The notes beneath the pieces are model-generated. The model saw only the letters and a program-made list of their open reading frames with translations. It searched no databases and was not told the origin of the DNA. The translations under genes were made by a program, and so were the position numbers. Positions 48,380-64,000 of a stretch of DNA of 64,000 nt are shown here, in pieces. The DNA comes from Phaeobacter sp. 11ANDIMAR09 (GTDB lineage: Bacteria > Pseudomonadota > Alphaproteobacteria > Rhodobacterales > Rhodobacteraceae). The stretch spans positions 1 through 64,000 of the forward strand of contig NZ_LIKT01000016.1 of NCBI RefSeq assembly GCF_001294455.1, in the 5' to 3' direction. How positions within the stretch are numbered: the first letter of the stretch is position 1; every line of letters starts with the position of its first letter.

Positions 48380-49399
48380 TCACTGGCCAAAGAAATCAGG
48401 CAGCTCCAGACTGTCCCCACGCGCGACGGCCTTGGCGTAGACATAACTCGCCAGGGCCACATCCAGGACCCCCATGCCAAAGGGCGAATAGATCACTGGC
48501 TTGCGATCCGTGAGGGTCACATTGCCCTCAATCACCTGGGTGAGAGAGCCGGCAACAAAATCGCGCCCACCAGATAGGGTCTCGGCAAGATGGGGAGAGG
48601 TCTGCGCCTTGAGGCAATGGTCCACATCGTCAAAGACATTCTGTGCCGCTAGGATTTGCTGCGGTGCGATATCGCGTAAAGATACGTTTAAAATGGTCTG
48701 TCCAGGGGAAAACTGAAACGTTTCAGGTAGGTAGGGCGTTACCGCGTTGGTGGCAAAGACCACGAGTTCCGCATCCAACGCCTGCTCCAAGCCGACAGAT
48801 TGCGCTGCAAGGCCGCAGCCCTCTGCGGCATGGTCAACCAGCGATGCGGCGGTGTCTGGATTGAGGTCGTGGCAATAGACCTTACCGATGTGCCAACCCC
48901 GGGCGCAAAACTGGTACAGAATATTGCGGGAAATCAGCCCCCCGCCGACAAAGGCGATGGATTTTACCCGACGTCCCAGGTTTGAACAATGATCCGCCCC
49001 CAGCACGGCGGAGGCTGCCGTGCGCATGGCGCTGATCTGTGCCCCTTCCAGAACCGCAAAGGGGTAGCCGGTTTCAGCGTCGTTGAGGATGATCACGGCT
49101 GAGGCGCGGTCCAGTCCTTTGCTCAGATTGGCGGGGTAGCTGGCGATCCACTTGATGCCCGAGACCTGGAGGTCCTTGGTGGCGATGGCGGCGGGCAGGG
49201 CAATGATACGGTTGCGGTCGCTGTCGGGAAAGCGCAGAAAATAGCTGTCAGGATTGACCGTTTCTTGCTGGTGATGCGCCTGATAGGCACGCGCCACCAA
49301 TTGTTCGATCTCCTCGGCATTGCCCTGCAGCACCTTGCGGATTGCATCCGCTTTGATCAGCTGCAGGCCAGGCTTTGGGGGTTGGGGTTCGGTTTCCAT
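48380..49399 (-). CDS. sbnB: SbnB-like N-(1-amino-1-carboxyethyl)glutamate dehydrogenase (2,3-diaminopropionate synthesis)
   Basis: Ornithine-cyclodeaminase/mu-crystallin-fold enzyme of 339 residues. SbnB oxidatively splits N-(1-amino-1-carboxy-2-ethyl)-glutamate to L-2,3-diaminopropionate, 2-oxoglutarate and NADH. Blocks include SYFLRFPDSDRNRIIALPAAI, GIKWIASYPANLSKGLDRASAVIILNDAETGYPFAVLEGAQISAMRTAASAVLGADH and KSIAFVGGGLISRNILYQF for NAD binding. Its ATG is one base after the sbnA stop, so the pair is an operon. The Staphylococcus aureus siderophore genes sbnC-F are absent; the diaminopropionate presumably serves the nearby peptide synthetase cluster. Confidence 0.88.
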   Translation of the reverse strand: METEPQPPKPGLQLIKADAIRKVLQGNAEEIEQLVARAYQAHHQQETVNPDSYFLRFPDSDRNRIIALPAAIATKDLQVSGIKWIASYPANLSKGLDRASAVIILNDAETGYPFAVLEGAQISAMRTAASAVLGADHCSNLGRRVKSIAFVGGGLISRNILYQFCARGWHIGKVYCHDLNPDTAASLVDHAAEGCGLAAQSVGLEQALDAELVVFATNAVTPYLPETFQFSPGQTILNVSLRDIAPQQILAAQNVFDDVDHCLKAQTSPHLAETLSGGRDFVAGSLTQVIEGNVTLTDRKPVIYSPFGMGVLDVALASYVYAKAVARGDSLELPDFFGQ

Positions 49400-49400
49400 G

Positions 49401-50399
49401 TCAGCTGACCTCGCTTGCCGCCTCTTCCAATCGTTGCCGGGGACGGTCGGCGCTTAGATCCAGCGCGGGTAGGGCGCCATAGACCTCCTGCACCCAGGCG
49501 TCGTTGTAGACCGTGTCCAGGTATTTTTCGCCGCCATCCGGCGAGAGCGCGACGACTTTGGTCCCTTTGGAAAATAGATCTGCACGGGCCCGAATGCCGG
49601 CCAGAACCGACCCGGTGGAGCCCCCTGCCAGATAGCCATGGCTGGTGGCCAGCCAGCGACACAGGCGTATGGCTTCTGGTTCGGGAACCAGGACGCTATG
49701 GCGCAGCTTGTCGGCCTGATAGATTTCCGGGATGCGGCTGGTGCCGAGACCGGGAATGAAACGCGGGCCAGCTTGGCCGCCAAAGGTGATGGAGCCGGTT
49801 GAATCTACCGCCAAAACCTGGGCCGGATGACGGATACCGTCGAAATAGTCGAGAAACCCCATGAGAGTGCCGGTGGTGCCAGCTCCAACAACGACCCAAT
49901 CGGCCTCCGGGTGAGCCATAGCGATCTCGACCGCTGTAAGCCGCGCATGGGCCGCCGGGTTGGCTGGATTTGCATATTGGTTGGTCCAATAAAGGGTAGG
50001 ATCGGCCGCTAGCATTTCTTTGATTAAGGCAATGCGGGTTCCCAGATATCCCCCCTGTGCATCGCGGGCGGTGACTTGGATAACCTTACCGCCAAAGGCA
50101 TGGATCATGGCCACGCTTTGGGCGGAAACATTCGGATCTACCACACTGGTAAAACCATAGCCGCGTTTTGCACAGAGAGCGGCCAGTGAAATGCCTAGAT
50201 TGCCGGAGGTGGATTCAATAACCGTGCCACCGGGTTGCAACCTACCCGAGCGTTCAGCCGCATCAATCAGGCTGATAGCCGTTTTGTGTTTGATGGATCC
50301 CGAAGGGTTTACGGATTCTATTTTCAGAAACAACTCCGCCTCAATCAGACCGGATAATTTCATAAAGAAGGCATCTGGTAATTCATCTCTAGCGGGCAT
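49401..50399 (-). CDS. sbnA: SbnA-like N-(2-amino-2-carboxyethyl)-glutamate synthase
   Basis: PLP enzyme of 332 residues of the cysteine-synthase fold. SbnA joins O-phospho-L-serine and L-glutamate by beta-replacement, the first step to 2,3-diaminopropionate. It has NPSGSIKHKTAISLIDAAERSG with the PLP lysine, ESTSGNLGISLAALCA, the phosphate-binding GAGTTGTLMGFLDYF and AGGSTGSVLAGI. GGAGG stands five bases before the ATG. It is divergent from a phosphopantetheinyl transferase gene with a 55-base gap. The need for O-phosphoserine makes the small kinase encoded at 54612 a possible partner. Confidence 0.88.
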   Translation of the reverse strand: MPARDELPDAFFMKLSGLIEAELFLKIESVNPSGSIKHKTAISLIDAAERSGRLQPGGTVIESTSGNLGISLAALCAKRGYGFTSVVDPNVSAQSVAMIHAFGGKVIQVTARDAQGGYLGTRIALIKEMLAADPTLYWTNQYANPANPAAHARLTAVEIAMAHPEADWVVVGAGTTGTLMGFLDYFDGIRHPAQVLAVDSTGSITFGGQAGPRFIPGLGTSRIPEIYQADKLRHSVLVPEPEAIRLCRWLATSHGYLAGGSTGSVLAGIRARADLFSKGTKVVALSPDGGEKYLDTVYNDAWVQEVYGALPALDLSADRPRQRLEEAASEVS

Positions 50400-50454: not shown

Positions 50455-51198
50455 ATGATGATTCAGTCAATAGGGGCGTTTGTCTTGGAAAGGCCATATC
50501 TCCGGTCAAATACAATAAAATCAGGCATTTCGCTCTTTCTTTGTTTGGTGAATGCGCCAGGTAGCAGTTTGGTTTCGGCCCTGTTGCCTGGGTTGACGGA
50601 TCAAGAACGCCAAAGAGCTGCGCGCTTTGTCTGCCCTGAGGCGCTGCATCTGTTTGTTCTGTCTCATGCCGCTTTGCACTGGGCCCTGCGGGGCGCCGGA
50701 ATTTGTAGCTACAGCTTTGCCTGCACTGCGCAGGGCAAACCCTATCTGGCCGATCACCCTGCGTTGCATTTTAATTTGTCGCATACAAAGGGGTTGATTG
50801 CTGTGGCGCTGAGCGCGGGCCATCCGGTTGGTGTGGATGTCGAACGGCTGACGACCCCACAAACCTACCGTGAACTAGCCCCGCGTGTCATGACCCCAGC
50901 GGAGTGTACCTATATGGCGGCGCAACAAAGGCCAGAGGATCGCTTTACCCAGCTCTGGTCTGCCAAAGAGGCGCTGATGAAGGCGACCGGGCTTGGTTTT
51001 ACCCTGCCGCCGCAGGACATCGAATTTGCGGGACCAAAGCCCACCCTGACCCGTCTGCCCACCACTCAGGGTCCGGTCGCAACATGGCAGCTGCGTACCC
51101 AACGTTTGCCGGGGCATTGGCTCGCCCTGGCTGCGCAGGCTCCAGCGCTGGCGTTTGATCCGATCCACCTCAGTCCGCAGGATCTTGTGGCGCCATGA
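50455..51198 (+). CDS. 4'-phosphopantetheinyl transferase (Sfp type)
   Basis: Enzyme of 247 residues that transfers phosphopantetheine from CoA to carrier-protein serines. Hallmarks are GKPYLADHPALHFNLSHTKGLIAVALS, the metal-binding GVDVERL and FTQLWSAKEALMKATGLGF. It should activate the free carrier protein at 53481, the ACP of the fusion protein at 59294 and the synthetase that begins at 63253. There are two adjacent ATG codons; the first is used here. Its 3' end overlaps the convergent ligase gene by 29 bases. Confidence 0.92.
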   Translation: MMIQSIGAFVLERPYLRSNTIKSGISLFLCLVNAPGSSLVSALLPGLTDQERQRAARFVCPEALHLFVLSHAALHWALRGAGICSYSFACTAQGKPYLADHPALHFNLSHTKGLIAVALSAGHPVGVDVERLTTPQTYRELAPRVMTPAECTYMAAQQRPEDRFTQLWSAKEALMKATGLGFTLPPQDIEFAGPKPTLTRLPTTQGPVATWQLRTQRLPGHWLALAAQAPALAFDPIHLSPQDLVAP

Positions 51199-52345
51199 CA
51201 GCTCTGCGCACAGGATCGGGCCAGCCCGAAGGATCCAGGCCCTTTTGACGCACAAAGGCATAGAGCCAGCGCTCCAACCCAAAACCCATACAGGCACTTT
51301 CGGCCCTGGTTCCGTCGGCAAAAGCAATGTCATAGGTGCTGGTGTAGAAATCACGGTGCAGGTTGAAGCTGGAGGCCGCTAGGGGGGCGTCCCGGTCTGA
51401 TATGTGAAACAGCAGCTCGTATTTCACCTCTCCCATTCGCTGATAGACCACCTTGTCTCGGCTGCTATCCACAAAAAAAGGATCATTCGCCAGCTCGAGA
51501 CTGACCTGCATCCCCAGGGTCTCGCAAAAGGCAAACACCCGCTCCATCACCTCGGCACGCAGCCGGGTCAGTTCCGCTCCGGAGCCAAAAAATACAATGT
51601 CGCGCACTGAAAAATCCCAGCCGCGCGACAGGGGTTGAAACCGGTTAGCCTCGTAGCGGAACACATGGTTTTGCATGGTCAGCCGTCGCACTTCGCCTCT
51701 GGCCAGCCGCAGACCTGCGTGTTGAGAGTAGCAGGGCAGGCAGACCGCGGGGGTCAGCACGTGCTCGGGTCCTTCCATGACGGCGCCCAGCTCGGCTGCG
51801 CGGGCTTTGGAGAGCGGTTCCTTGGCCATCTGTGCCACCTGTTCTAGAACTGGCAACTGGTCGGGGAAATGACTGCACAGGGTAACATGCTGGGGAAAAT
51901 TGCTTGTATAGCCAACCTCTTGCAGCAGTTTGGCAGGCATCATAACCGGATAGTGCTGATCCAGTGCGGCGTAGTCGTCGGCCAGATCCGCAAAGGTGGC
52001 CTCAAAGTACCGAAACAGCTTGAGCAACTGTCCAGAGATCCCGGTCAGCCCATCAGCAAAGAAATGCAGATCTTCGCTGGCCGCCAGATCTTCATCCGAG
52101 CACCCCTGCGCGCTAGGCGCGGAGGTTTCCCGCAGCACGCGGCGGGCCACCAAACGGTGGGTTTTGCGCATCGCTTCGGCAAATCCCAGGGCTTCGCCCA
52201 TCTTGGCTTCTCCGGTCGCGGAGATCTGCGCTATGCCGTCGGGCTGCAGCTCTACCGTCACCCCAATCGCCAGTAACCCGTCAACAATGGCAAGCCGGCT
52301 TTCTGGAGTCAGCGCCGTGAGGTCAAAATCACAGGTCCGGGTCAT
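51170..52345 (-). CDS. Class II aminoacyl-tRNA-synthetase-like amino acid:[carrier protein] ligase
   Basis: Protein of 391 residues with the catalytic core of atypical seryl-tRNA synthetases but no tRNA-binding coiled coil. Motif 2 is FRYE with a downstream arginine (Arg230-Glu232, Arg248 in GWDFSVRDIVFF) and motif 3 is GFGLERW (354-360). Cys202 (PAVCLPC), Glu232 and Cys352 (ESACMGFG) match the zinc-binding Cys-Glu-Cys set of the amino acid:carrier-protein ligases described from Bradyrhizobium and Agrobacterium, which load glycine or alanine on carrier proteins. The N-terminal 90 residues are an unrecognised extension. Start ATG 52345 overlaps the acyl-CoA dehydrogenase stop (ATGA). It is last in a seven-gene operon with a free carrier protein three genes upstream, making that protein the likely acceptor. 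The amino acid is unknown; serine fits the neighbours best. Confidence 0.82.
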   Translation of the reverse strand: MTRTCDFDLTALTPESRLAIVDGLLAIGVTVELQPDGIAQISATGEAKMGEALGFAEAMRKTHRLVARRVLRETSAPSAQGCSDEDLAASEDLHFFADGLTGISGQLLKLFRYFEATFADLADDYAALDQHYPVMMPAKLLQEVGYTSNFPQHVTLCSHFPDQLPVLEQVAQMAKEPLSKARAAELGAVMEGPEHVLTPAVCLPCYSQHAGLRLARGEVRRLTMQNHVFRYEANRFQPLSRGWDFSVRDIVFFGSGAELTRLRAEVMERVFAFCETLGMQVSLELANDPFFVDSSRDKVVYQRMGEVKYELLFHISDRDAPLAASSFNLHRDFYTSTYDIAFADGTRAESACMGFGLERWLYAFVRQKGLDPSGWPDPVRRAVMAPQDPAD

Positions 52346-53484
52346 GAGAGATGCACCTCTGAGAGGGACAGCCGGGCGATCATGCTTTCCAGCACCTGGG
52401 TGGTGCCCTCGATCACCTCCATGATCCGTGAGTCGCGATGGAATAGCGCCATGGGGGTGTTGGGGCCGATGCCTTCGGCGCCAAAGATCTGCTGCGCATC
52501 GCGGGTGACGCGTCCGACCATCTGCGAGGCAAAGTATTTGGCCATGGTTGCCTGTTTCGCCGCATCCATCTGGCGCAGGGCGCGCGCGGTGGCGGCCGAT
52601 TGGCACATCAGCCTGGCGGCGTGGATGTCCGTTGCCATACGGGCCAGCATTTGCTGCACCAGTTGGAAGTCACCAATTGGCTTGCCAAATTGCTGGCGGG
52701 TCTTGGCCCGCCGCAGCGCCAATGTGCAGGCGGCATCTGCCAGGCCGACACAGCCCCAGGCGAGGTTAAGCCGCCCGGCCTCCAGCCCAGTGACCGCGAC
52801 ATGCGACGCTCCAAAACCGGGGCGGCCCAACAGGTGATCCTCGGGCAGATAGGCCGCCTCTAGGTGCAGATTGGCCATCATATAACCGCGGCACCCCAAC
52901 AGGCCCTCGATAGGGGCAATGCGCAGGCCCTTGGTCTGTTTTGGCAGCAAAAAGGCCGTTGGTCCGGCTTCCGTTTTGGCGATCAAAACAAAGAGGTCTG
53001 CAAAATCTCCACAGGTAATCCAGGCTTTTTGACCGGTGAGCTCATAGCCGCCTGAAACGGGTCTGGCCTGGGTCTGCACCGCCGAGATGTCGCTGCCAAC
53101 TTCGGGCTCGGTCATGGCAATCGCGCAGCAGATCTCGCCGCTGAGCACCCGTGGCATCCACTGGGATCTTTGTGCTTTGCTGCTCCATTTTGCCAGCGCG
53201 CTGCCCCCCATGTGGTGGACATTCAGCACCCCCTGAACCGAGGCGCTGGCCGCGCCCAGGGCCTGATGCATCTGGCCATGGTCCAGGCTTGCAGAAAGTG
53301 CCTCCGCCTGATCTGTTGCGGGCCCGCCAGGAAAGCCACTGGCAAAGGCCCCAGCCTGGCGTAGCGCCATAATCACCTGTTGCGGCACCCGGGCGTCCTG
53401 ATCAATCTGGGCGGCCAAGGGCGCTATGACCTCCTGCGCCAGGCTGTCCCATCGGGTATGGTCCGGAGTGGTCTGGACAGTCAC
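52342..53484 (-). CDS. Acyl-CoA-dehydrogenase-family oxidase acting on a carrier-bound substrate
   Basis: Flavoprotein of 380 residues of the acyl-CoA dehydrogenase fold. Blocks are CCAIAMTEPEVGSDISAVQTQA (FAD/substrate loop), YELTGQKAWITCGDFADLFVLIAKT, GCVGLADAACTLALRRAKTRQQFGKPIGDFQLVQQMLARMATDIHAARLM and AQQIFGAEGIGPNTPMALFHRDSRIMEVIEGTTQVLESMIA, with a glutamate in the usual catalytic region. The start is GTG, overlapping the carrier-protein stop (GTGA), and the stop overlaps the ligase start. Its place directly beside a carrier protein suggests an acyl- or aminoacyl-S-carrier substrate. In zwittermicin-type extender pathways such an enzyme performs the second oxidation to the malonyl level. 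Confidence 0.85.
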   Translation of the reverse strand: MTVQTTPDHTRWDSLAQEVIAPLAAQIDQDARVPQQVIMALRQAGAFASGFPGGPATDQAEALSASLDHGQMHQALGAASASVQGVLNVHHMGGSALAKWSSKAQRSQWMPRVLSGEICCAIAMTEPEVGSDISAVQTQARPVSGGYELTGQKAWITCGDFADLFVLIAKTEAGPTAFLLPKQTKGLRIAPIEGLLGCRGYMMANLHLEAAYLPEDHLLGRPGFGASHVAVTGLEAGRLNLAWGCVGLADAACTLALRRAKTRQQFGKPIGDFQLVQQMLARMATDIHAARLMCQSAATARALRQMDAAKQATMAKYFASQMVGRVTRDAQQIFGAEGIGPNTPMALFHRDSRIMEVIEGTTQVLESMIARLSLSEVHLS

Positions 53485-53741
53485 GCGGCGGCCATGGCTT
53501 GCTTGCGGGCAACCAGGGCGGCAACGCGATTGATCGAACGAAAATTGTCGATCTCCAGATCTTCTGCTTCAATGTCCAGGCCAAAATGTGATTCAACAAA
53601 AGCAACCAGCTGCATGGCAAACATGGAATTGCCATAGCCGGCTTCAAAGATATCCTGATCGGGTTCGATCTTTGCGCCGTCAAAGGAGCGCGTCATGAAT
53701 GCGGCGATGGCGCCCTGGGGATTGGTCTTGGTGTCAGTCAT
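53481..53741 (-). CDS. Free-standing acyl/aminoacyl carrier protein
   Basis: Carrier protein of 86 residues. The phosphopantetheine attachment site is Ser39 in FEAGYGNSMFAMQLVAFVESHFGLDIEAEDL, with Asn in place of the more usual Asp before the serine. The rest is acidic and helical, ending SINRVAALVARKQ. The start is ATG 53741 with GAGGT five bases upstream; the larger open frame lies inside the preceding gene. It is flanked by two dehydrogenase genes and followed by the ligase, so it is the probable platform on which an amino acid is held and oxidised. Confidence 0.88.
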   Translation of the reverse strand: MTDTKTNPQGAIAAFMTRSFDGAKIEPDQDIFEAGYGNSMFAMQLVAFVESHFGLDIEAEDLEIDNFRSINRVAALVARKQAMAAA

Positions 53742-53754
53742 GGGAACCTCTTTG

Positions 53755-54609
53755 TTATTGATCATAGGTGTGAAAGCCGCGCCCGGCCTTGCGTCCGGTT
53801 TGCCCGGCATAGACAAGCCGTTTGAGCAGGGGGCAGGGGCGGTACTTGGGGTCGTTGAATTCGTCATAGAGAATATCCAAAGACAGTTTTACGGTATCTA
53901 GCCCGATCAGATCAGCGGTCTCTAGCGGACCCATTTTGTGGCCAAAGCAGGTCTTGAACAGCCGGTCCACGCCCTGAACATCGGCCACGCCCTCATGGAC
54001 TAGAAACATGGCCTCATTGACCATCAGCATCATCACCCGATTGGTGACAAACCCCGGGCTGTCGTTGACCAGAATCGACTGTTTGTTGGCAGCCGCGACC
54101 AGATCCGCTGCCGCCTGCAACGCCTGCGGCGTGCTATGGGTGGCACGAATGATTTCGACCATGGGCATGATTGGCGGCGGGTTCATAAAATGCATGCCAA
54201 TGACGCGGTTAGGATGGCGCGAGAAGCTGGCAATGCGGGTGATCGGGATGGCGGATGTATTGGCGGCGACCGGCGTCTCGGGGGGCAGAATGTGATCAAT
54301 CTCGTGGTGGACTGCCGTTTTCAGAGCCACGTTTTCGGTGATATTCTCAATCACGAAACCAGTCCCCGACAGAGCTTCCATATCCGTTGTAAATGTCAGC
54401 CTGTTCAGGACGCCGGCAGGGGCGGGTAGGGATTTGTGCACCATGCCATAGAGGCGGGCGTTCTTGGTGATGTTTTTGCAGGCGGTTTCCAGCTGCTCGG
54501 CGACGCTGTCCACCAGCACCACCTGCAACCCGGATTGAGCAAAAAGTTGGGCAACACCTGATCCAATAGTCCCGGCGCCAACAACGCCGATGGTTCCAAA
54601 GTCTCTCAT
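53755..54609 (-). CDS. 3-hydroxyacyl-CoA-dehydrogenase-family enzyme
   Basis: NAD-dependent dehydrogenase of 284 residues, the usual length for short 3-hydroxybutyryl-CoA dehydrogenases. The Rossmann motif GVVGAGTIGSGVAQLF (8-23) is followed by FVIENITENVALK, ANTSAIPITRIA and catalytic His140 in IGMHFMNPPPIMPMVEI. The C-terminal domain has NDSPGFVTNRVMMLMVNEAM and ETADLIGLDTVKLSLDILY. It lies 13 bases before the carrier-protein gene. Acting on seryl-S-carrier it would oxidise the hydroxymethyl group to an aldehyde, the role of ZmaG in zwittermicin biosynthesis. A fatty-acid role is the alternative. Confidence 0.88.
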   Translation of the reverse strand: MRDFGTIGVVGAGTIGSGVAQLFAQSGLQVVLVDSVAEQLETACKNITKNARLYGMVHKSLPAPAGVLNRLTFTTDMEALSGTGFVIENITENVALKTAVHHEIDHILPPETPVAANTSAIPITRIASFSRHPNRVIGMHFMNPPPIMPMVEIIRATHSTPQALQAAADLVAAANKQSILVNDSPGFVTNRVMMLMVNEAMFLVHEGVADVQGVDRLFKTCFGHKMGPLETADLIGLDTVKLSLDILYDEFNDPKYRPCPLLKRLVYAGQTGRKAGRGFHTYDQ

Positions 54610-54611
54610 GG

Positions 54612-55268
54612 CTACTCCTTGGTTTGTGACCTGTTTCTAGGGGCCTTTGCGGCTGCGGGGTGCAGCGCGGCGATGGCCTGCTGTGCCTGGGCTGCCAGTT
54701 CCGGCAGCGTGTACATCCCGTCAAGAATCCTGTCGGCCTGCGCTCTGGCCTGCGCCTCTGCCAGGCGATAGGCCTGCCGTTGTGGCCCCAGATATGCCTG
54801 AAACTGGGCAGCAAGATCCTCCAGGGCTTCTGCGTGCCAATGCGCATGCGCCGGGTCCGGTTGTGCCTGGGCGCGGCGCAGCGAGCGACGGGCCAGCGCA
54901 ATGTCCGGGGGTAATTCTAGGTGCAGCGCCAGATCGATCAGCGGCGCAAGGGCGCTGCGGGCGCGGCCAAAGGGATCTTCCAGCAGGATCAGCTCGGCCG
55001 GAGCGACTGGCGCGCGACCTCCCGAGGGATGGATGGTTTGATTAGACTGTAGGGCCAGCAGATCATCCGTGAGCCCTGGTGTCTTGATGGCATCCGCAGG
55101 GGCACCCTCCGCGACCCATTGCTGGATCTCATCCACATCGGTGCCCAGCTCGACATAGTCATCAAAAAACAACAGGGCCGCGCCGCCCTGCAGTGCCGCG
55201 AGGTGGCGCATCAGAGAGCTTTTGCCCGCACCTGAGGTGCCCGAGACAACAACGGTGATGGCCATCAT
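54612..55268 (-). CDS. P-loop small-molecule kinase (uridine-kinase-like fold)
   Basis: Protein of 218 residues with Walker A GTSGAGKSS (10-18), FFDDYVELG (about 34-42) resembling the acidic DDFY region of uridine/pantothenate/glycerate kinases, and LLEDPFGRA as a Walker-B-like strand. A LID-type arginine cluster follows (ALARRSLRRAQ), then an Ala/Gln-rich helical tail. The exact substrate is not recognisable. It overlaps the amidotransferase stop by four bases and lies two bases before the dehydrogenase gene, so it belongs to the pathway operon. A free serine or threonine kinase supplying O-phospho-amino acid to SbnA is an attractive inference; a nucleoside or glycerate kinase is the alternative. 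Confidence 0.72.
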   Translation of the reverse strand: MMAITVVVSGTSGAGKSSLMRHLAALQGGAALLFFDDYVELGTDVDEIQQWVAEGAPADAIKTPGLTDDLLALQSNQTIHPSGGRAPVAPAELILLEDPFGRARSALAPLIDLALHLELPPDIALARRSLRRAQAQPDPAHAHWHAEALEDLAAQFQAYLGPQRQAYRLAEAQARAQADRILDGMYTLPELAAQAQQAIAALHPAAAKAPRNRSQTKE

Positions 55269-57130
55269 ATCCCTCCCGGCCCCAAGCGGGGCATGTCAAA
55301 GCATTCCAGGAAAATTCCAAAGCTGAGCACCGTCAAAAGCGCGTCATCCGGCGCCCCGCCGGAAGGCAGCGCAGGCCCTCTCAGTGCAGCGCGTTTGAGC
55401 GCTTCCACGGAATCGACGTTAAAGAAGCCCTGGGCGCGGATTGTTGCGGGGGACAAGAGGTCAGCAATCCAGGGGCAGTTCTGCAAGAGCAAAAAGGCGC
55501 TGCCCGGGGCGCCAAAGGCAAATTTCTCCCGGTTGATGATTTCTGCGGGGACATGCGGTTTGGCCGCCTGTTTCAGGACATGTTTTTCCTCAAAGCCATG
55601 CAGCAATTGGTCCGGTGGGATTTGCGTCACCAGCTGCACGAGATCGCGATCCAAGAAGGGAAAGCGCCCCTCGACTGAATTGGCCATCAGCATCCGGTCC
55701 CCGTGATCGCCAAGCAGGTGATCCCCAAGGCGCAGTTTGAAATCCAGGTAGGAGCGTTGGTGAATCACATGCCGATCCTTGACTTTGCTTGGGTCCACCA
55801 GCGCAGTATTGGAAAAGCAAAACTGCTGTAGTTGGTCCGCCAGCGGGGCCGAATAAAGCCAGCGGCGCTGTGCTTCGTGGGCAAGGAGGTCTTTTTCATA
55901 GAACAGATCCGCTGCCCCAAAGGCTCTGGCGCGCAGTTCAGCCTCGGCGGCGGGTGGATCGACCTGGCCACGTAGGGCCCGAAAGGCATCATAACGATAG
56001 CCCAGGTAGCCCGCGAACAGCTCGTCTGCGCCTTCACCCGACAGCACAACCGGCACCCCGGCGTCACGGGTGGCAGCCGAGAGCGCCAGCGACGCGGTGT
56101 TGTAGCTTTCTTTGATTGGGCATTCGGCGTGCCAGATGGATTGCCGCAGAGCGGCGGCGATATCTTCGGCGGGATGCAGTGAGCTGCGGTGAATGGTTCC
56201 GCATTCTTTGGCAACGAGGCTTTGGTAGCTGTCTTCGTCAAACATCGGTTGATCGAAGGTGATTGAGAAGCTGTTCAGCGCCTCGCAGCCTTGGTCGGCC
56301 ATCAGAGCGGTGATAAAGGCGCTGTCCAGCCCGCCGCTCAGGTAGCTGCCAACCGGGACATCCGCCATCAATCTGCGCTCGACCGATGCAGCCAAGGAGG
56401 CGCAGACCTGCCTGTCATGCTGGGCAGTGCTGTCGGGGGCCTCTGCCGTTGTCGGATAGTTTAGATCCCAATAGGCTGTGCACCGCGTCCCGGCCCCATC
56501 CACCACCAGTTTGCATCCGGGCGGCAAGCTGTGAATGCCTTTGAACATGGTTCTGGGGCTGACCAGGCCGGGCAGGGACAGCACTTGATCCAAACCAGTC
56601 AGATCCACTTCTCGTTTGATGCCGGGATAGGTCAAGATCGCCTTTATTTCCGAGGCAAAGATCAGGGCATTGCCGTGTTCCGTGTAAAAGAAAGGGGCCA
56701 CTCCAAAGGGGTCGCGGGCGCAAAACAGACGCTTGTTGTCACTGTCATAGAGGGCAAAGGCGAATTGGCCGTTGAGCTGATCCAACAGTGCCTCACCATG
56801 GTCCTCATAGAGGTGGAGGAGGACCTCCACGTCCGAGCCGGTGGCAAAGCGATGGCCCCGTGCCATCAGCCGTTTGCGCAGCTGCGGCGCATTAAAAATC
56901 TCGCCATTGCAGATCAGGTGCAGGCTGCCATCCTCGTTGGCGATGGGCTGGTTGCCGCCTTCCAGATCCACAATGGCAAGGCGGCGAAACCCGAGCGCTG
57001 CCCTGTCATCCAGAAACATGCCCTCATCATCCGGGCCGCGATGGGCCAGTTGTGCCTGCATTCGGGCCACCACCTGTGGCGAAGCCGGAGGCGGGCCAGA
57101 TGCGGAAAAAGCGCCACATATTCCGCACAT
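55265..57130 (-). CDS. asnB: Asparagine-synthetase-like glutamine amidotransferase
   Basis: Class II glutamine amidotransferase of 621 residues. The protein starts MCGICGAFS, exposing the catalytic cysteine after Met removal, which fixes the start at ATG 57130 (an upstream extension would bury it). The glutaminase domain has RGPDDEGMFLDDRAALGFRRLAIVDLEGGNQPI. The synthetase domain shows the pyrophosphate loop VGSYLSGGLDSAFITALMA and VVLSGEGADELFAGYLGYRY. In primary metabolism such enzymes make asparagine; in biosynthetic clusters relatives amidate other carboxylates. The gene starts two bases after the threonine-synthase-like gene, so a pathway amidation or a supply of asparagine is likely. 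Confidence 0.9.
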   Translation of the reverse strand: MCGICGAFSASGPPPASPQVVARMQAQLAHRGPDDEGMFLDDRAALGFRRLAIVDLEGGNQPIANEDGSLHLICNGEIFNAPQLRKRLMARGHRFATGSDVEVLLHLYEDHGEALLDQLNGQFAFALYDSDNKRLFCARDPFGVAPFFYTEHGNALIFASEIKAILTYPGIKREVDLTGLDQVLSLPGLVSPRTMFKGIHSLPPGCKLVVDGAGTRCTAYWDLNYPTTAEAPDSTAQHDRQVCASLAASVERRLMADVPVGSYLSGGLDSAFITALMADQGCEALNSFSITFDQPMFDEDSYQSLVAKECGTIHRSSLHPAEDIAAALRQSIWHAECPIKESYNTASLALSAATRDAGVPVVLSGEGADELFAGYLGYRYDAFRALRGQVDPPAAEAELRARAFGAADLFYEKDLLAHEAQRRWLYSAPLADQLQQFCFSNTALVDPSKVKDRHVIHQRSYLDFKLRLGDHLLGDHGDRMLMANSVEGRFPFLDRDLVQLVTQIPPDQLLHGFEEKHVLKQAAKPHVPAEIINREKFAFGAPGSAFLLLQNCPWIADLLSPATIRAQGFFNVDSVEALKRAALRGPALPSGGAPDDALLTVLSFGIFLECFDMPRLGPGGI

Positions 57131-57132
57131 GG

Positions 57133-58371
57133 CTAGTGCTCCTGCCAGGTGGGCGGGGCCACCAGGGTGTGCCAATCCTCGGGATGCAGGCAGGGGGCGG
57201 TCTGGGCCTCAGCGGCGGCAATGGCAACGCGCAGATCCTTGAGCCCGGTTCCGGTGCCCAACAGGACCACCCGCTCATCCGTGGCAAAACCGCCCTGTTG
57301 TTGTAGTTTTTCAAACCCGGCATATCCGGCGGCTGAAGAGGGTTCCAGAAAGATGCCAAATCTAGAGGCCATAGCCATGACCGCCTTGGAGATTTCTGCA
57401 TCATCCACCACCACCGCGCGGCCATTGCTGTGGCGTAGCGCCCGGACGGCGGCGCGTTCATCCATCGGCGCCGGGACATGGATGCTATCGGCGCAGGTGG
57501 TCTGCGCCCCGCCTTGTAGACGAGGGTCAAAGGCCTGGGCAATAGGGCAGGCGGCGGCGGTTTGCACTGCCAGCAACCGGGGCAGATGCGGGATCAATCC
57601 GCAGGCTTTGAGATCGGAAAACCCTTTGGCCATGGCGCTGAGGATATTGCCATCTCCGGTTGGAACCACCACCCAATCGGGGGGCTGCCAGTCCAATTGT
57701 GCCGCTATCTCCAGCGCGCAGGTCTTTTTCCCTTCGCGGGTAAAGGGATTGAGGCCGGTTGTTCGGTTCAGGGCACCGCGCGCCCGTGCCAGGTTGCCAG
57801 CAACGGTGCAGGCAGCGGCATAGGGGCCTTCAATTCTGTGCACCTCAGCGCCAAAGGCTTGAATCTGGGCCAGTTTGGCTACCGGAATGTCCCGCGGCAC
57901 AATCACAGTCACCCGGGTTTTCTGTGCGGCACCTACGGCCGCCAGCGAGGCCGCCGCATTGCCCGTAGAGGCCATGATGACTTCGTCGATCTCAAAGGCC
58001 GCCGCCACTGCGAGGACCAGCTCGCTGGCGCGATCCTTGAGCGAGCCGGAGGGGTTTCTGGTCTCATCCTTGAGCCAGAGCCTGGGGCCCTGATGGGGGC
58101 CGAGATCCAGCAAGGGGGTGCCGCCAACCTGCAAATGCGAGCCCCAGCCAGCCCTGAGGGGTAAAAAATCTTCAAATTGCCACATGCCAGACTGCGGCGA
58201 CGTCTGAACCCCATGTCGCAGCCTGTCTGGAGAAGCCGCGAGGGGCTGTGTCAGTTCAAGATTGCCGCCGCAGGCGCAGGCCAGGCTGCGCGCAGTGATG
58301 GCGTGCTGGCGCCCACAGTCCAGGCAAGCGCCCGAAATACGATGGAATTGGGATAGATCGGATAGCTCCAC
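57133..58371 (-). CDS. Threonine-synthase-like PLP enzyme
   Basis: PLP-dependent fold type II enzyme of 412 residues. The N-terminus has a zinc-ribbon-like CLDCGRQ...CACGG (Cys16, 19, 32, 34), as in one threonine synthase subgroup. Then come LKDETRNPSGSLKDRASELVLAVAAAFE with the PLP lysine, MASTGNAAASLAAVGA, VVVPTGDGNILSAMAKGF for phosphate binding and EPSSAAGYAGFEKL. Threonine synthase converts O-phosphohomoserine to threonine. As first gene of the cluster operon it may supply threonine or perform a related replacement on a phosphorylated amino acid. The start is GTG 58371 with GGGAGGG upstream. Confidence 0.82.
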   Translation of the reverse strand: MELSDLSQFHRISGACLDCGRQHAITARSLACACGGNLELTQPLAASPDRLRHGVQTSPQSGMWQFEDFLPLRAGWGSHLQVGGTPLLDLGPHQGPRLWLKDETRNPSGSLKDRASELVLAVAAAFEIDEVIMASTGNAAASLAAVGAAQKTRVTVIVPRDIPVAKLAQIQAFGAEVHRIEGPYAAACTVAGNLARARGALNRTTGLNPFTREGKKTCALEIAAQLDWQPPDWVVVPTGDGNILSAMAKGFSDLKACGLIPHLPRLLAVQTAAACPIAQAFDPRLQGGAQTTCADSIHVPAPMDERAAVRALRHSNGRAVVVDDAEISKAVMAMASRFGIFLEPSSAAGYAGFEKLQQQGGFATDERVVLLGTGTGLKDLRVAIAAAEAQTAPCLHPEDWHTLVAPPTWQEH

Positions 58372-58770: not shown

Positions 58771-59293
58771 GGGGATTCTCCTCATGTTAGATAGATCGGG
58801 ATGTCAGTACCGGTGCTGTCAGTCGAAAAACAAAAACAACCTAAGCAGGAATAAAGCAGTAACATGAAATTTTTCAAACATCCATATACTGTTTTGAGTT
58901 GTGTAATACATATTTAAGTTGTGTTGATAATTATTTTGTGGTTTCAAATATATGGCGATCTCTTGCCTGTGGATTTGAAGTTTTAAAATCTAGCTTGCCA
59001 GGTTTGAGAAAGTCGTAGCGGTTTCTGTCTGGAGTTTTATTTGACCAAAAATCTCCAAAGGTTTGAATCATAATTAAAAAACCAAGGCAGATGCAACGGC
59101 CTTCGCGCGCTCCGGGCCTCGTAGGAATCAGTCCAGTGTGGCCTGACACGAGGGGTGGTCTTGGTTGAAGCGCAGGGGTTTGAAATCCGCAGACTGCTGG
59201 GCCCTGACTCGGGGCCGCGTAGAGCGTGGATAGGATGAGTGGTGTTGCGACATGCGCGGCCTGCGCCAAAGGGAGAAGAGAGGGAGAGAAAGA
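58771..59293. promoter_or_regulatory. A+T-rich divergent control region of the biosynthetic cluster
   Basis: About 520 bases without a gene between the minus-strand genes and the large acyl-AMP ligase fusion. The left part (about 58840-58960) is much more A+T rich than the rest of the window. It carries two direct copies of AGTTGTGT at 58897-58904 and 58917-58924, a 20-base period that would place a dimeric regulator on one face of the helix. The right part (59080-59250) is GC rich and featureless to me. No regulator gene is adjacent. Confidence 0.5.
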
Positions 59294-62200
59294 ATGGGGT
59301 TCGACACAGGATTGATCAGAAGTTTGCAAGACCGCGCAACCGAAGGAAAACAGGTCGCATTTTCGTTCCTAGTGTCACCCGATCAGCCCCCGGAAACCTT
59401 GACCTATCAGGGCTTGGATGGCACTGCCAAAACCCTGGCTCTTGCCCTGCAGGCCGAGGCTAAGACCCTGCAGTTTACGTTACGACAGGCTCCTGTGCTT
59501 ATCGCGCTACCTGCCGGGTTGGCCTTTTTGCAGTGTTATTTTGGCTGTCTCTATGCCGGGGCAATTGCTGTGCCAATCAAGTATCCGCAGCGAAATAAGC
59601 CGATGGATCACACAGAAAATGTCGCGGCTGATTGCGGCGCCCGTCTGGTGATCGCGACTCGGGAGATGAAGGTGCGGTTGAGCGAGGCTTTGCCGGATCT
59701 ACGGGTGCTTGCTATTGAGGATCTGTTGTCCCGCCCCGCCCCGGCGGGTGCGATCTGGACCGACCCGGATCCCAAGGGCACTGATATCGCGCATCTGCAA
59801 TATACCTCGGGTTCGACGTCAGCGCCCAAAGGGGTAGCGATCAGCCATAACAATATTGCGCAGAATGCAGCGGATGTTTGCAGCAGTTTTACAATTGATG
59901 AGACCAGCCGCCTGTTGTGCTGGTTGCCGCATTACCACGACCTGGGGCTGATCTTTGGCTGTATCGTACCGGTGTTTTCAGGCAGTCACAGCCTTTTGAT
60001 GCCGCCGGCCCATTTTGCACAACGTCCCGTGCGGTGGTTGCAGGTGATGCAGGCGCATCAGGTCACCCATTCGGCTGCGCCAAATTTTGCCTTTGATGCC
60101 TGTCTGGCGGTGCCTCGCAGTGTGACCGCAAATCTGGATTTGTCCTGTGTGCAGGCTCTGTTGAATGGGGCAGAACCCGTCCGGGCGCAGACCGTGCAGC
60201 GTTTTGTCAGCCGTTTTGCTGAAAACGGGCTGGGAGCGGATGTGCAATGCCCCTCTTACGGGATGGCTGAGAACACCTTGGTCATTAGTGTCAACGGTCC
60301 GGCCAATCCGCTGACATGGGCGCGGTTTGATAGCGAGGCTCTGCGGCAGCGCCGGTTGGTACCTGTGGAAGAGTCGCATCTGCGGCACCGCGCATTGGTG
60401 GTTTGCAGCGGAGCAGAGTTGGGTTGTGAAATTCGCATTGTAGAGCCGCAAAGCCTGCAGGCCTGCGCGCCGGGTGAGATTGGCGAGATTTGGGTGCAGG
60501 GGCCTTCTGTTGCGGCGGGCTACTGGCAGCGCGATGCGCTGACGCAAGAGAAGTTTCAGGCCCGGCTTAAGGGGGAAACTGGCCTGTGGCTGCGCACCGG
60601 AGATCTGGGTGGGTTCTGCGACGCTGGCCTGATCGTTATTGGCCGGTTGGATGATGTAATGGTTCTGCGCGGCATCAATTACAGCCCCGAAGATATCGAA
60701 CTCTCCGTTGAGGCCTGCGACCCGGCGTTGGAGCCGGGTGGGGCTGTAGTTTTTGCCAGTGAAATCACAGCGCAAGCCATGGGGCAGGTTGATGGTGAAA
60801 ATGGCGCTGAAAATAGCGGTACCCAGCGGTTGGTTGTGGTGCATGAGGTTACGCGGAGCGCGCTTCGGACGCTGCGGCGTGGTGGCGCGGCCTCGGAGGA
60901 TCTAATGCAGCATCTTGTGGCCATCATTCGGGCACAGGTGGCAGAGCAGCATGACCTTGATCTGGGCGCTTTGGTCCTGTTGCCGCCCAAAGGGGTGCCC
61001 AAGACCCATACCGGCAAAAAGAAGCGGCATGCCTGCCGGAGCGGATTTGCTGATGGCACCTTGACGGGCGAGGCGCGCTGGTTTTCGTCGCGCTATACCC
61101 GCGCAGTTTCGACTACTCTATCAGGTGATACCCCCTCTCAGACCTGCGGCCAGCAAGAGCCCTCACCGGATGCAGAGGCGCTGTCCAGCACCACGAGGGA
61201 TCTGATCGACTGGCTGCGGCACTACGGCGAAACACGTCTGAACTCTCGCCAAATGGATGAGCGGCGCACGATGCCGCCCTATGTGGTGATGGATTTTGCC
61301 AGGCAGGGGCTTTGGGGCATGGTTGCGCCACAGCACTATGGTGGGCTGGGTCTGCGCAACAGTGATTTTGTGGATGTCGTACAGCAGATGGCGGCAATCG
61401 ACACCACTTTGGCCTCATTCACGGTTGTCAATAATGCCTTGGGCCTGCGCCCCATTCTGCGCCACGCTCAGCCGGATCTAGTGGAGCGGCTGATGCCCGA
61501 GCTGGCCAGCGGGCGCAGGCTTGCCTCCTTTGCCATGACCGAGGCTGGAGCGGGCTCGAATATTCGCAATCTCTCAGCCAGAGGGGTGCCGAATGGCCGC
61601 GGGGGCTGGCAGCTGCAGGGGCGTAAACTCTGGTCAGGCTCAGCGGCCTGGGCAGGGGTGATCAATACCTTTGTCAGGATCGAAGATCCCCGGGGCGGCC
61701 AGGCGGTCAGTGGCTTTGTGGTGGAGGCTGAGACCGCAGGGCTGCGCCAGGGCCCCGAGGCCTTGACTCTGGGGCTGCGAGCCATGGTGCAAAATGAGGT
61801 GCTGCTGGAGGGGGCAGAGGTCACTGCGGATCAGCGTCTGGGGGAAATCGGACAGGGCATGGTCGCGGCCTCGGATGCGATGGAATACGGGCGTTTTGCC
61901 ATCGCTGCGATGTCACTGGGCGTGGTGAAGCGCTGTCTGCAACTGATGCTGCGTCACGGCAGCCGTCGTATGATTGCCACGGGCGCTTTGCTGGACAACC
62001 CGGCAACCAGCCTGCGGGTTTCTGAACTGGCAAGCGCCGCTACTGGCATCGACGCCCTGGTGCGGACGGTAGCCGCGCAGCTGGATGCCGGTCAACCGCC
62101 CCCGGCCGAGATGTTTTGCGCCTGTAAATCTCTGGCGCCTGAATATGCCTGGAAGGCCGCGGATGGGCTGATCCAGCAAATGGCGGGTCGGGGCTATATC

Positions 62201-63256
62201 GAGACAAACATCGCCCCTCAGATCCTGCGGGATGCACGGGTGTTGCGAATCTTTGAGGGGCCAACAGAGCCGATGAATGCGCATATCGGCGCGCGTCTGG
62301 CGCAATTCCCGCAGGCGCTGGAGGACTATGTCGGCACCCGGTTGCAGCAACCGGAGCTGGGCACAGAGTTGGCTCTGAGCGCCCAGCAGATCTGGCGACA
62401 TCACCTGGACCATCAGATCCTTTGGGGCGGATATGCTGCGGCCAAGGCCCAGGCGCATCTGGCGATTGGCGAAGCCGCAAGCCATGGCTTGATGCTGGCA
62501 TGCCTGGTTCATCAGGGCGAGACAGGGGCTGCAAACCCAGATGGGGCCAACAGGCGGGCGCAGGATTGGGCGCGACGTCAGTTTGACAGGGCCTGGGCCA
62601 AGGCCCTGACCATGTCTCCTGCACAGGCGGTGCGGTTGGATCAAATGGAGATGGAGGCTCTGCGCGACAGTTGCGCCGCCGCGATTGGTGATGTCGAACA
62701 GCAGATGGCGGGATCAGATCATGAGCTCGACGGGTTGCTGAGGCGACAAAAACCGCAGCCAAAGCAAGAAGTGGCGCCTGCACAGCAAGGCGGGGCACAG
62801 GTCTCCTCTGGCCAGGGTGATGCGTTGCAGTCGGGTGATGGGGAGACATCGAAAACGGCTGAGGTCCGCGCGCTTAGCGCCTGGATCAAACGCTGGATGG
62901 CTTCAGAATTTCAGATCGAAATTGCTGCGATCGACGAGGCGGCCCGGTTTTCAAGCTTTGGCATGGATTCGGTGGCGGCCATGTTGCTGACAGGGGCGCT
63001 GGAGGACTGGACTGGCGTGGACCTCCCTGCCTCGCTGGTCTGGGAACATCGCAGCATCCGGGCTCTTGCCAGCCATGTTGCGGGTCTTGCTGGGGTGACA
63101 ATTCCAGGACTGAAAACTGTTGCTGCAACAGATCCTCAGGCGGAGGTCGAGGCGGTGGATTTGATGTCCTTGTTGGCCGGTGCGGATGATCTGTCCGAGA
63201 CAGAATTGGCGGCGCTGATTGCGCGTCTTGAACAGACAACACCGGAGGTCACATGA
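59294..63256 (+). CDS. Fatty acyl-AMP ligase / acyl-CoA dehydrogenase / ACP fusion
   Basis: Protein of 1320 residues with three parts. Residues 1 to about 590 are a fatty acyl-AMP ligase: LQYTSGSTSAPKGVAISHNNI (near 170-188), PHYHDLGLIFG, YGMAENTLVIS, RTGDLGGF and DDVMVLRGINYSPEDIE match this ligase class. Residues about 640-1020 are an acyl-CoA dehydrogenase: FAMTEAGAGSNIRNLSARG (near 745), GRKLWSGSAAWAG, ARVLRIFEGPTEPM. After a Gln/Lys-rich linker, residues about 1190-1265 form an ACP with phosphopantetheine Ser1226 (FSSFGMDSVAAMLLTGAL). It should activate a fatty acid, load it on the ACP and introduce an alpha,beta double bond. ATG 59294 follows GGGAGAG. Its stop overlaps the synthetase start (ATGA), so the acyl-ACP probably feeds that condensation domain. 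Confidence 0.88.
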   Translation: MGFDTGLIRSLQDRATEGKQVAFSFLVSPDQPPETLTYQGLDGTAKTLALALQAEAKTLQFTLRQAPVLIALPAGLAFLQCYFGCLYAGAIAVPIKYPQRNKPMDHTENVAADCGARLVIATREMKVRLSEALPDLRVLAIEDLLSRPAPAGAIWTDPDPKGTDIAHLQYTSGSTSAPKGVAISHNNIAQNAADVCSSFTIDETSRLLCWLPHYHDLGLIFGCIVPVFSGSHSLLMPPAHFAQRPVRWLQVMQAHQVTHSAAPNFAFDACLAVPRSVTANLDLSCVQALLNGAEPVRAQTVQRFVSRFAENGLGADVQCPSYGMAENTLVISVNGPANPLTWARFDSEALRQRRLVPVEESHLRHRALVVCSGAELGCEIRIVEPQSLQACAPGEIGEIWVQGPSVAAGYWQRDALTQEKFQARLKGETGLWLRTGDLGGFCDAGLIVIGRLDDVMVLRGINYSPEDIELSVEACDPALEPGGAVVFASEITAQAMGQVDGENGAENSGTQRLVVVHEVTRSALRTLRRGGAASEDLMQHLVAIIRAQVAEQHDLDLGALVLLPPKGVPKTHTGKKKRHACRSGFADGTLTGEARWFSSRYTRAVSTTLSGDTPSQTCGQQEPSPDAEALSSTTRDLIDWLRHYGETRLNSRQMDERRTMPPYVVMDFARQGLWGMVAPQHYGGLGLRNSDFVDVVQQMAAIDTTLASFTVVNNALGLRPILRHAQPDLVERLMPELASGRRLASFAMTEAGAGSNIRNLSARGVPNGRGGWQLQGRKLWSGSAAWAGVINTFVRIEDPRGGQAVSGFVVEAETAGLRQGPEALTLGLRAMVQNEVLLEGAEVTADQRLGEIGQGMVAASDAMEYGRFAIAAMSLGVVKRCLQLMLRHGSRRMIATGALLDNPATSLRVSELASAATGIDALVRTVAAQLDAGQPPPAEMFCACKSLAPEYAWKAADGLIQQMAGRGYIETNIAPQILRDARVLRIFEGPTEPMNAHIGARLAQFPQALEDYVGTRLQQPELGTELALSAQQIWRHHLDHQILWGGYAAAKAQAHLAIGEAASHGLMLACLVHQGETGAANPDGANRRAQDWARRQFDRAWAKALTMSPAQAVRLDQMEMEALRDSCAAAIGDVEQQMAGSDHELDGLLRRQKPQPKQEVAPAQQGGAQVSSGQGDALQSGDGETSKTAEVRALSAWIKRWMASEFQIEIAAIDEAARFSSFGMDSVAAMLLTGALEDWTGVDLPASLVWEHRSIRALASHVAGLAGVTIPGLKTVAATDPQAEVEAVDLMSLLAGADDLSETELAALIARLEQTTPEVT

Positions 63257-64000
63257 CACAGAAACTCCCCCCAAAGGACCTCAGCAAAGACGCGTTAAAA
63301 GCCCAGTTGAAAAATCTTGTGCGCCGTAAAATGGGTGCCTCGAGCAAGGGGCACCCGCTGAGCCACGGGCAGCAATCCCTGTGGTTCTTATGGCAGATGG
63401 CACCGGATAGCGCCGCCTTTACTATGGCATTTCCGATGCAAATCACCGGAGCCTTGGATCGGGGCGCTCTGGACCGCGCCTTTGCAGCTTTGGTGGATCG
63501 GCACGCCTGTCTGCACAGTGCCTTTTCCGAAGAAGGTGGCAGTCTACGTCAGGTCAGACACGATGGGCCAGAGCCGCACATTCAGCATCAAGACGCCAGA
63601 GGATGGAGTGAGGAGGCGCTGCGCACGAAGCTGGAAGAAACAGCGCGCCAGCCCTTTGACCTGCGCCGGGATGCCTGCCTGCGGGCCCATTTGTGGCAAT
63701 GCGGGGCAGAGCGGCATGTCTTTTGTCTGGCGATGCATCATATTACTGGGGATCTGTGGTCCCTGGTGGTGCTGATGGATGAGCTGCGCCAACTTTATAG
63801 GGCGGAGCAGCAGGCCCGTGGTGCGGCGCCTGCCGCGGGTGTATTGCCGGAGATTGCGGTCACTTATGGGGATTGTGTGCGGGCGATGCAGCTGGAGCAC
63901 GCGCGTGGCAAGCATCAAACCGCATTGGCCTATTGGGCGCAGGAACTGGCCGGAGATTTGCCGGTGTTGGATCTGCCCACGGATTTTCCGCGCCCGGCCC
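63253..64000 (+). CDS. Nonribosomal peptide synthetase, N-terminal condensation domain (partial)
   Basis: The reading frame is open to the window edge (249 codons), so the gene continues beyond it. After about 30 residues the condensation domain begins with LSHGQQSLWFLWQMAPDSAAFTM (core C1), followed by RHACLHSAFSEEGG (C2) and the catalytic MHHITGDLWSLVVLMDEL, in which His162, His163 and Asp167 fit HHxxxD; the usual glycine after Asp is leucine. The end LPVLDLPTDFPRP is the normal mid-domain block. An initial condensation domain directly after an acyl-ACP loading protein suggests N-acylation of the first residue. Adenylation specificity is not visible here. Confidence 0.9.
   Translation, partial: MTQKLPPKDLSKDALKAQLKNLVRRKMGASSKGHPLSHGQQSLWFLWQMAPDSAAFTMAFPMQITGALDRGALDRAFAALVDRHACLHSAFSEEGGSLRQVRHDGPEPHIQHQDARGWSEEALRTKLEETARQPFDLRRDACLRAHLWQCGAERHVFCLAMHHITGDLWSLVVLMDELRQLYRAEQQARGAAPAAGVLPEIAVTYGDCVRAMQLEHARGKHQTALAYWAQELAGDLPVLDLPTDFPRPA

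Follow-up and report, generated by a model that had tools for sequence, protein, structure and literature searches.

The genes for aminomalonyl-acyl carrier protein (aminomalonyl-ACP) of the colibactin pathway have carrier-bound serine oxidised by two dehydrogenases, as is proposed here, with a non-ribosomal peptide synthetase (NRPS) adenylation domain as the serine loader. In zwittermicin biosynthesis (ZmaJ, ZmaH, ZmaG, ZmaI, ZmaF), carrier-bound serine is likewise oxidised by a 3-hydroxyacyl dehydrogenase (HADH) and an acyl-CoA dehydrogenase (ACAD) on a free carrier protein, the loader being the adenylation-type seryl-AMP synthetase ZmaJ, and the module of HADH, ACP and ACAD has been described with different loaders, of the FkbH type and ZmaJ (PMC6395733, in the portion drawn on here). 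Here, we describe a locus of Phaeobacter sp. 11ANDIMAR09 (contig NZ_LIKT01000016.1) in which the HADH, the free carrier protein and the ACAD are accompanied by a class II tRNA-synthetase-like amino acid:carrier-protein ligase instead. The window, i.e. the whole stretch of 64,000 nucleotides analysed, corresponds to contig positions 1-64000 with the same numbering, and the contig runs on to 103,008. Judged from sequence comparison, the four genes likely make aminomalonyl-carrier protein as the extender for the single polyketide synthase (PKS) module of the neighbouring assembly line. As the extender pathway itself is known, the synthetase-like ligase as loader would be what is new.

A review table lists such ligases as adding Ser (citing Mocibob 2010) or Gly/Ala (citing Mocibob 2013) to carrier proteins, and gives no pathway for the Ser-adding ligases (PMC9437257, in the part seen). 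Papers on foxicin, Pseudovibrio, solanimycin, DPO, sulfonyladenosines and chalkophomycin, in the parts consulted, dealt with other matters. In the open-licence literature, neither a synthetase-like ligase as aminomalonate loader nor a paper with both 'aminomalonyl' and 'tRNA synthetase' was found, an earlier description being possible as most subscription journals lay outside the search. The ligase work of Mocibob reportedly covers Gly and Ala only. To our knowledge, synthetase-like amino acid:carrier-protein ligases have no established pathway role so far, and the present proposal would assign the supply of polyketide extender units to one of their groups.

The cassette and its proposed pathway

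The four genes of the cassette and the adjoining transferase gene are as follows.

51170-52345, minus strand: class II synthetase-like amino acid:carrier-protein ligase, 391 aa (sequence and fold matches)
52342-53484, minus strand: FkbI-type ACAD, 380 aa (Pfam, trees)
53481-53741, minus strand: free-standing carrier protein (PP-binding), 86 aa (Pfam, NCBIfam)
53755-54609, minus strand: FkbK-type HADH, 284 aa (Pfam, tree)
50455-51198, plus strand: Sfp-type phosphopantetheinyl transferase (Pfam, NCBIfam)

The first-pass annotation, which had described four coupled genes at 51170-54609 beside an Sfp transferase, is borne out in that all four open reading frames are present on the minus strand in one tight operon, with gaps of 13, -4 and -4 bases in the order HADH, carrier protein, ACAD and ligase. 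The Sfp-type gene is convergent with the ligase gene, the end of which it overlaps by 29 bases, and its product is likely to activate the carrier proteins.

From the genes, their linkage, the clades, the acyltransferase (AT) motif, the PKS module and the recurrence of the cassette, all of which are observed, and from the known zwittermicin and FK520-type pathways, we infer the amino acid, the product and each of the catalytic steps. The Sfp-type enzyme would put phosphopantetheine on the carrier protein; the ligase would activate L-serine as seryl-AMP in a zinc-dependent class II active site and join the seryl group to the thiol of the carrier protein. The HADH would convert the CH2OH of the seryl-carrier protein to an aldehyde (NAD+) and the FkbI-type ACAD the aldehyde to a carboxylate (FAD), giving aminomalonyl-carrier protein. 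The AT of a module consisting of ketosynthase (KS), AT, ketoreductase (KR) and ACP would accept the aminomalonyl group of the free carrier protein; extension of the peptidyl chain with decarboxylation, then ketoreduction, would lead to an alpha-amino-beta-hydroxy unit. Serine is put forward as the substrate since it offers the CH2OH next to the alpha carbon on which the oxidation pair depends.

The dehydrogenase pair and the loader position

The ACAD falls into one clade with the FkbI-type ACADs of FkbH loci (98 in the Shimodaira-Hasegawa-like approximate likelihood ratio test, SH-aLRT, in a tree of 69 ACADs; support 100/99 in a careful tree of 25), separate from 20 other ACADs of its own genome. 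It keeps Glu359 where the usual catalytic base sits, and its C294, I358 and Q363 are found in 22/22 clade members and in 0/20 of the own-genome ACADs. Similarly, the HADHs of the cassettes and of the FkbH loci, together with a lone HADH on a Xenorhabdus plasmid (where the match consists of the HADH alone), form one group (94/99) apart from the own-genome HADHs. Genes of beta-oxidation are ruled out, as HADH and ACAD both group apart from the other copies of the genome. Among the best 25 of 898 plasmid records matching the ACAD, six of the first 11 come from loci inspected and seen to be of the FkbH type, the other five from four further Streptomyces canus plasmids and NBC_01296. A search with the window ACAD at E 1e-3 did not find the ACADs of the loci L006 and L007 (L numbers denote our loci), which carry ligases of the classical glycine/alanine type.

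In seven plasmid loci of Streptomyces, Chroococcidiopsis, Gloeocapsopsis and Alkalihalophilus, the gene order is HADH-ACP-ACAD-'HAD-IIIC family phosphatase', the last of which is taken as FkbH so that the order reads FkbK-J-I-H. In the window, the ligase occupies the slot of FkbH in an otherwise identical gene order. Thus, the locus resembles the FkbH-FkbI-FkbJ-FkbK operons for methoxy/hydroxymalonyl-ACP in gene order and in its HADH and ACAD groups, but differs in that the FkbH loader, which is of the haloacid dehalogenase (HAD) type and glycerate-derived, is replaced by the ligase, and therefore an amino rather than a hydroxy substituent would be expected. A search of the strain's own genome at E 0.001 gave no FkbH homologue, and hydroxymalonyl-ACP is rejected as the product on this ground. 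Because, in addition, the AMP-binding and adenylation domains of the cluster all lie within assembly-line proteins, with no separate serine-activating adenylation enzyme seen, no other loader is in sight. As a side observation, the FkbH locus of Alkalihalophilus pseudofirmus (L019:6527-7660) additionally encodes, immediately upstream of the HADH, a distant homologue of the ligase (78 bits), another carrier protein and a BtrH-like protein.

The ligase and its classification

The ligase has no Pfam match in the scan of the window proteins, and its sequence matches in the PDB are Bll0957 (3mey, E 2e-25) in the first place, followed by the atypical seryl-tRNA synthetases (SerRS) 3w3s and 2cim. Bll0957 is a glycine:carrier-protein ligase of Bradyrhizobium. 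The class II catalytic core is related to that of atypical SerRS and holds a Cys-Glu-Cys site, whereby Cys202, Glu232 and Cys352, already pointed out in the first-pass annotation, are identical in 78/78 tabulated ligases including the one of the window and are predicted to be zinc ligands. A structure was predicted with a mean predicted local distance difference test (pLDDT) score of 90 from an alignment of 30 sequences. With Bll0957 and its kin, the window ligase shares the fold, the Cys-Glu-Cys site and a nearby carrier protein gene (here two genes away), but differs by about 90 extra N-terminal residues, another ACAD, the presence of the HADH and the lack of DUF1839. These residues (approximately 1-90) form a predicted alpha/beta region which is missing from two aligned classical ligases. 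Used as a query, this region matched four near relatives only, the N-terminal region of a Streptomyces ligase matched actinobacterial and several other ligases, and the two regions did not match each other by sequence search.

That the enzyme is one of the known Gly/Ala-type ligases, as assumed at the outset, did not hold. With 148 bits against NF005479 (NCBIfam), for which the cut-off is 357 bits, it represents a related group outside family membership; the ligase tree (relatives from a genome-collection scan plus plasmid and own-family loci, midpoint root) divides in two, the classical ligases lying on one side and the window's group on the other, with 100 SH-aLRT for either side. The window ligase has Trp-Asp at 243-244, and 28/29 classical ligases have Gln at 243. 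Score, clade position and different neighbours, together with the extra N-terminal region, rule out a classical Gly/Ala ligase. It is nevertheless conceivable, if quite unlikely, that the ligase loads glycine or alanine and that the dehydrogenases act on some other substrate or carrier protein, the glycine ligase Bll0957 being the nearest solved relative by sequence. Apart from family score and clade, this is countered by the classical loci, of which 31/43 have DUF1839, 35/43 another ACAD and 0/43 a HADH or an extender-type ACAD, by the 4-base overlaps that bind the genes for carrier protein, ACAD and ligase together and by the lack of a CH2OH to oxidise in Gly and Ala. A tRNA-charging enzyme is considered unlikely, as Bll0957 comes first by sequence and operon and neighbours argue otherwise.

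The presumed receiving module and the cassette in other bacteria

The hybrid NRPS/PKS assembly line spans 59252-79734 and continues beyond the window end. Its proteins, with condensation (C), adenylation (A), peptidyl carrier protein (PCP) and thioesterase (TE) domains, are as follows.

59252-63256, plus strand: starter protein AMP-binding (probably fatty acyl-AMP ligase)-ACAD-PCP (Pfam)
63253-66690, plus strand, the window holding 63253-64000: NRPS C-A-PCP
66687-70979 of the contig: NRPS C-A-(methyltransferase)-PCP, the methyltransferase match being weak
70976-75595 of the contig: PKS KS-AT-KR-ACP, the sole PKS module of the line
75592-79734 of the contig: NRPS C-A-PCP-TE

The first-pass annotation had named a cluster lacking a PKS or extender-using module beyond the window as evidence against its proposal; the KS-AT-KR-ACP module at 70976-75595 is such a module. 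In the second NRPS module, the code of the A domain reads by eye as DASTVAAVC, which we take to be tyrosine-type, and, considering also the weak in-line methyltransferase, the PKS module may therefore extend an N-methyl-tyrosyl chain.

ZmaA-AT and ZmaF, the hydroxymalonyl- and aminomalonyl-ACP ATs, carry the motifs GYSFG and GYSLG, respectively, with CoA-using ATs in the same table having GHSxG (PMC4207774). The AT of the window cluster has GYSIG, a motif of the GYSxG form seen in these ATs for ACP-bound extenders. Its best PDB match is ZmaA-AT (4qbu) with 214 bits, the only comparison with zwittermicin made by sequence, the other Zma proteins being compared by description. ZmaF is a free-standing AT and the AT of the window cluster sits inside the PKS module. 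GYSxG occurs in 5/8 window-type ATs, GYSIG also in those of Pseudophaeobacter leonis, Azospirillum, a Rhodobacteraceae metagenome-assembled genome (MAG) and Methylobacterium. GYS is furthermore present in 11/11 pattern-caught cassettes with the actinobacterial ACAD type (L014 was not caught) and in 6/7 FkbH loci, as compared to 1/21 background AT loci (from 30 AT loci of nine genomes, five are window-type, and of the rest 21 fit the pattern and four do not). In the RXR motif, read by eye, the window AT has Ser-Cys-Gln without a positive charge; as the ATs of FkbH loci keep the Arg, the motif was not used as evidence.

A KS-AT-KR module was found for 8/9 window-type relatives, with none in the flank of Polyangium (L034); L033 and L035 show it as AT-KR ends, L027 (P. 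leonis) has it in broken frames, and that of L030 (Methylobacterium) lies on a short contig of its own. The ATs of P. leonis, the Rhodobacteraceae MAG and Azospirillum are located on the contig of the cassette, the Methylobacterium AT on a separate contig of 6.5 kb. In P. leonis (L162/L167, contig of about 137 kb), the PKS reading frame is broken by a stop and split over frames, by sequencing error or decay.

When a genome collection was scanned once with an alignment of three ligase sequences, 89 relatives were confirmed, 80 of which were kept. The nearest ligases come from P. leonis (79%), the Rhodobacteraceae MAG (62%), Azospirillum (56%) and Methylobacterium crusticola (55%), followed by Granulicella (54%), Acanthopleuribacter (53%), Polyangium (51%), an alphaproteobacterial MAG (50%) and a Binatia MAG (50%). 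Of the loci that share the window's side of the tree (window not counted), 25/45 carry both a HADH and an extender-type ACAD no further than 3.5 kb from the ligase, and 28/45 carry an extender-type ACAD; 17 of the 25 also have KS or AT within 10 kb. Five diiron-type loci on the same side of the tree (0/5 with HADH and extender-type ACAD) and the Alkalihalophilus FkbH locus were counted apart. L026, L069 and L079, too short for the tree, were assigned by neighbours or default, and less than 3.5 kb of flank was available on one side in 9/45 window-side and 7/43 classical loci. The cassette loci stem from six phyla (Pseudomonadota, Acidobacteriota, Binatota, Myxococcota, Actinomycetota and Chloroflexota), so that the four-gene set, for which a genome search had been suggested, indeed recurs beside PKS/NRPS modules in other phyla.

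On the Streptomyces plasmids NBC_00984 and NBC_00557, the set HADH-carrier protein-ACAD-ligase stands between an alpha/beta hydrolase and a KS protein on its upstream side and a discrete AT on its downstream side; other actinobacteria show varying orders, for example AT-ACAD-ligase-HADH-carrier protein in L047 and L056. The two annotated Streptomyces cassette ligases are labelled 'hypothetical protein'. Since ligases of the group occur with two separate ACAD lineages, the ligase-ACAD arrangement probably arose more than once. In the own family, a ligase match is found in 5/394 genomes (1/2 genomes of the genus), and with this rarity the cluster has probably been acquired.

Cumulatively, we favour, with somewhat less assurance than the assignment of the window cassette, the view that aminomalonyl-ACP is reached by a second route, one that spans phyla. 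In this route, a serine:carrier-protein ligase that is SerRS-like, zinc-dependent and equipped with an N-terminal domain of its own would replace the adenylation domain, HADH and ACAD would be shared, and the loader would be exchangeable, FkbH leading to hydroxymalonyl and the ligase to aminomalonyl. The ligase would then be a loader perhaps exchangeable against FkbH in a defined oxidation cassette, and its gene could serve as a genomic marker for amino-substituted polyketides.

Several observations weigh against these assignments. By fold, M. kandleri SerRS ranks first by Foldseek E-value (17% identity, template modelling (TM) score by target length 0.56), ahead of Bll0957 in second place (24% identity, TM score by target length 0.88), which weakens the case for a loss of tRNA charging. 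At residue 249, the window-type ligases differ from the other seven groups of the motif table in having Asp instead of Glu, so that the substrate could differ, and the table, in which the pocket was compared by alignment, contains group-specific residues, none of them tied to serine. The top PDB match of the ACAD is the generic ACAD 2dvl with 180 bits, FkbI (1r2j) ranking 27th with 136 bits. Of seven genomes searched, that of Granulicella alone has one FkbH-like gene elsewhere (32% identical), and one single FkbH/ligase exchange within the FkbI clade is not rejected (p-value of the approximately unbiased test, p-AU, 0.148). Moreover, GHSxG stands in place of GYSxG in 3/8 window-type ATs, namely those of L031 (Granulicella), L032 and L035, and it is likewise found in the pattern-caught ATs of L019, L038, L040, L041 and L042. 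The ACAD clade of the actinobacterial cassettes has Ala/Gly at the position of the catalytic Glu in 13/13 members (L008, L014, L045, L047, L048, L050, L052, L054, L056, L057, L059, L060 and L064), and the chemistry of the actinobacterial discrete-AT cassettes may therefore differ. Finally, 20/45 window-side loci are without a HADH within 3.5 kb; part of these had shortened flanks, and others (Paenibacillus L051, L053 and L058 as well as L043 and L044) are genuinely other contexts. L023-L026, re-examined with more DNA, still had no HADH, one of them having KS, C and AT nearby. On the supporting side, L031, L041 and L042, which combine ligase and ACAD with no near HADH, served as a test, and in 3/3 cases the genome has a HADH 51-60% identical to that of the window; in Granulicella it lies some 20 kb away on the contig of the cassette, for L042 on another contig and for L041 possibly on the same one.

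The missing catalytic Glu in the ACADs of the actinobacterial cassettes would also fit an oxidation of the seryl-carrier protein only to the aminomalonate semialdehyde, or a product that goes to an NRPS and not to a PKS as extender, as would the lack of an AT within 10 kb in L034, L037, L057 and L064. With the window ACAD keeping Glu359 and the FkbI-clade residues and with a KS-AT-KR module in 8/9 window-type relatives, we regard this outcome as very unlikely. The role of a ligase-fed extender pathway, as first suggested, is thus supported by the PKS module, the dehydrogenase clades, the recurrence and the lack of FkbH, the AT motif giving a mixed picture.

The remaining genes adjoining the cassette are as follows.

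48380-49399, minus strand: SbnB, 2,3-diaminopropionate biosynthesis (above NCBIfam cut-off)
49401-50399, minus strand: SbnA, 2,3-diaminopropionate biosynthesis (above NCBIfam cut-off)
54612-55268, minus strand: P-loop kinase, AAA_18/PRK08233-like, both under the curated cut-offs, coupled to the cassette
55265-57130, minus strand: asparagine synthetase-like amidotransferase, ATG at 57130 (Pfam, NCBIfam)
57133-58371, minus strand: pyridoxal phosphate (PLP)-dependent threonine synthase-like enzyme, encoded at the head of the run (Pfam, NCBIfam)

The adjacent SbnA and SbnB genes, which recur in L027-L031 (P. leonis, the Rhodobacteraceae MAG, Azospirillum, Methylobacterium and Granulicella), as well as the Asp249 particular to window-type ligases would be compatible with a ligase that loads 2,3-diaminopropionate or another non-serine amino acid, the dehydrogenases then making something other than aminomalonate. 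This alternative appears unlikely in light of the window-type cassettes L032-L035, which have no SbnA/SbnB in flanks of up to 10 kb, and of the HADH/FkbI pair, which in the known pathways with FkbK/FkbI and ZmaG/ZmaI acts on a CH2OH that diaminopropionate does not possess.

The cassette is part of a seven-gene minus-strand run of threonine synthase-like enzyme, asparagine synthetase-like enzyme, kinase, HADH, carrier protein, ACAD and ligase with spacings of -4 to 13 bases, the start of the asparagine synthetase being taken at 57130. Another context of the ligase, the third, is the combination diiron oxygenase-carrier protein-ligase-nitronate monooxygenase of Tistrella and actinobacteria; these diiron-type loci (L011, L012, L013, L083 and L106, with L013 lacking the nitronate monooxygenase) form a separate ligase group with 100 SH-aLRT. 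In L178 of the own family, a distant ligase and a carrier protein adjoin a KS-C-AT protein without a HADH. The coupled P-loop kinase, like SbnA/SbnB, accompanies the cassette in L027-L031 too and may be the source of O-phosphoserine for SbnA.

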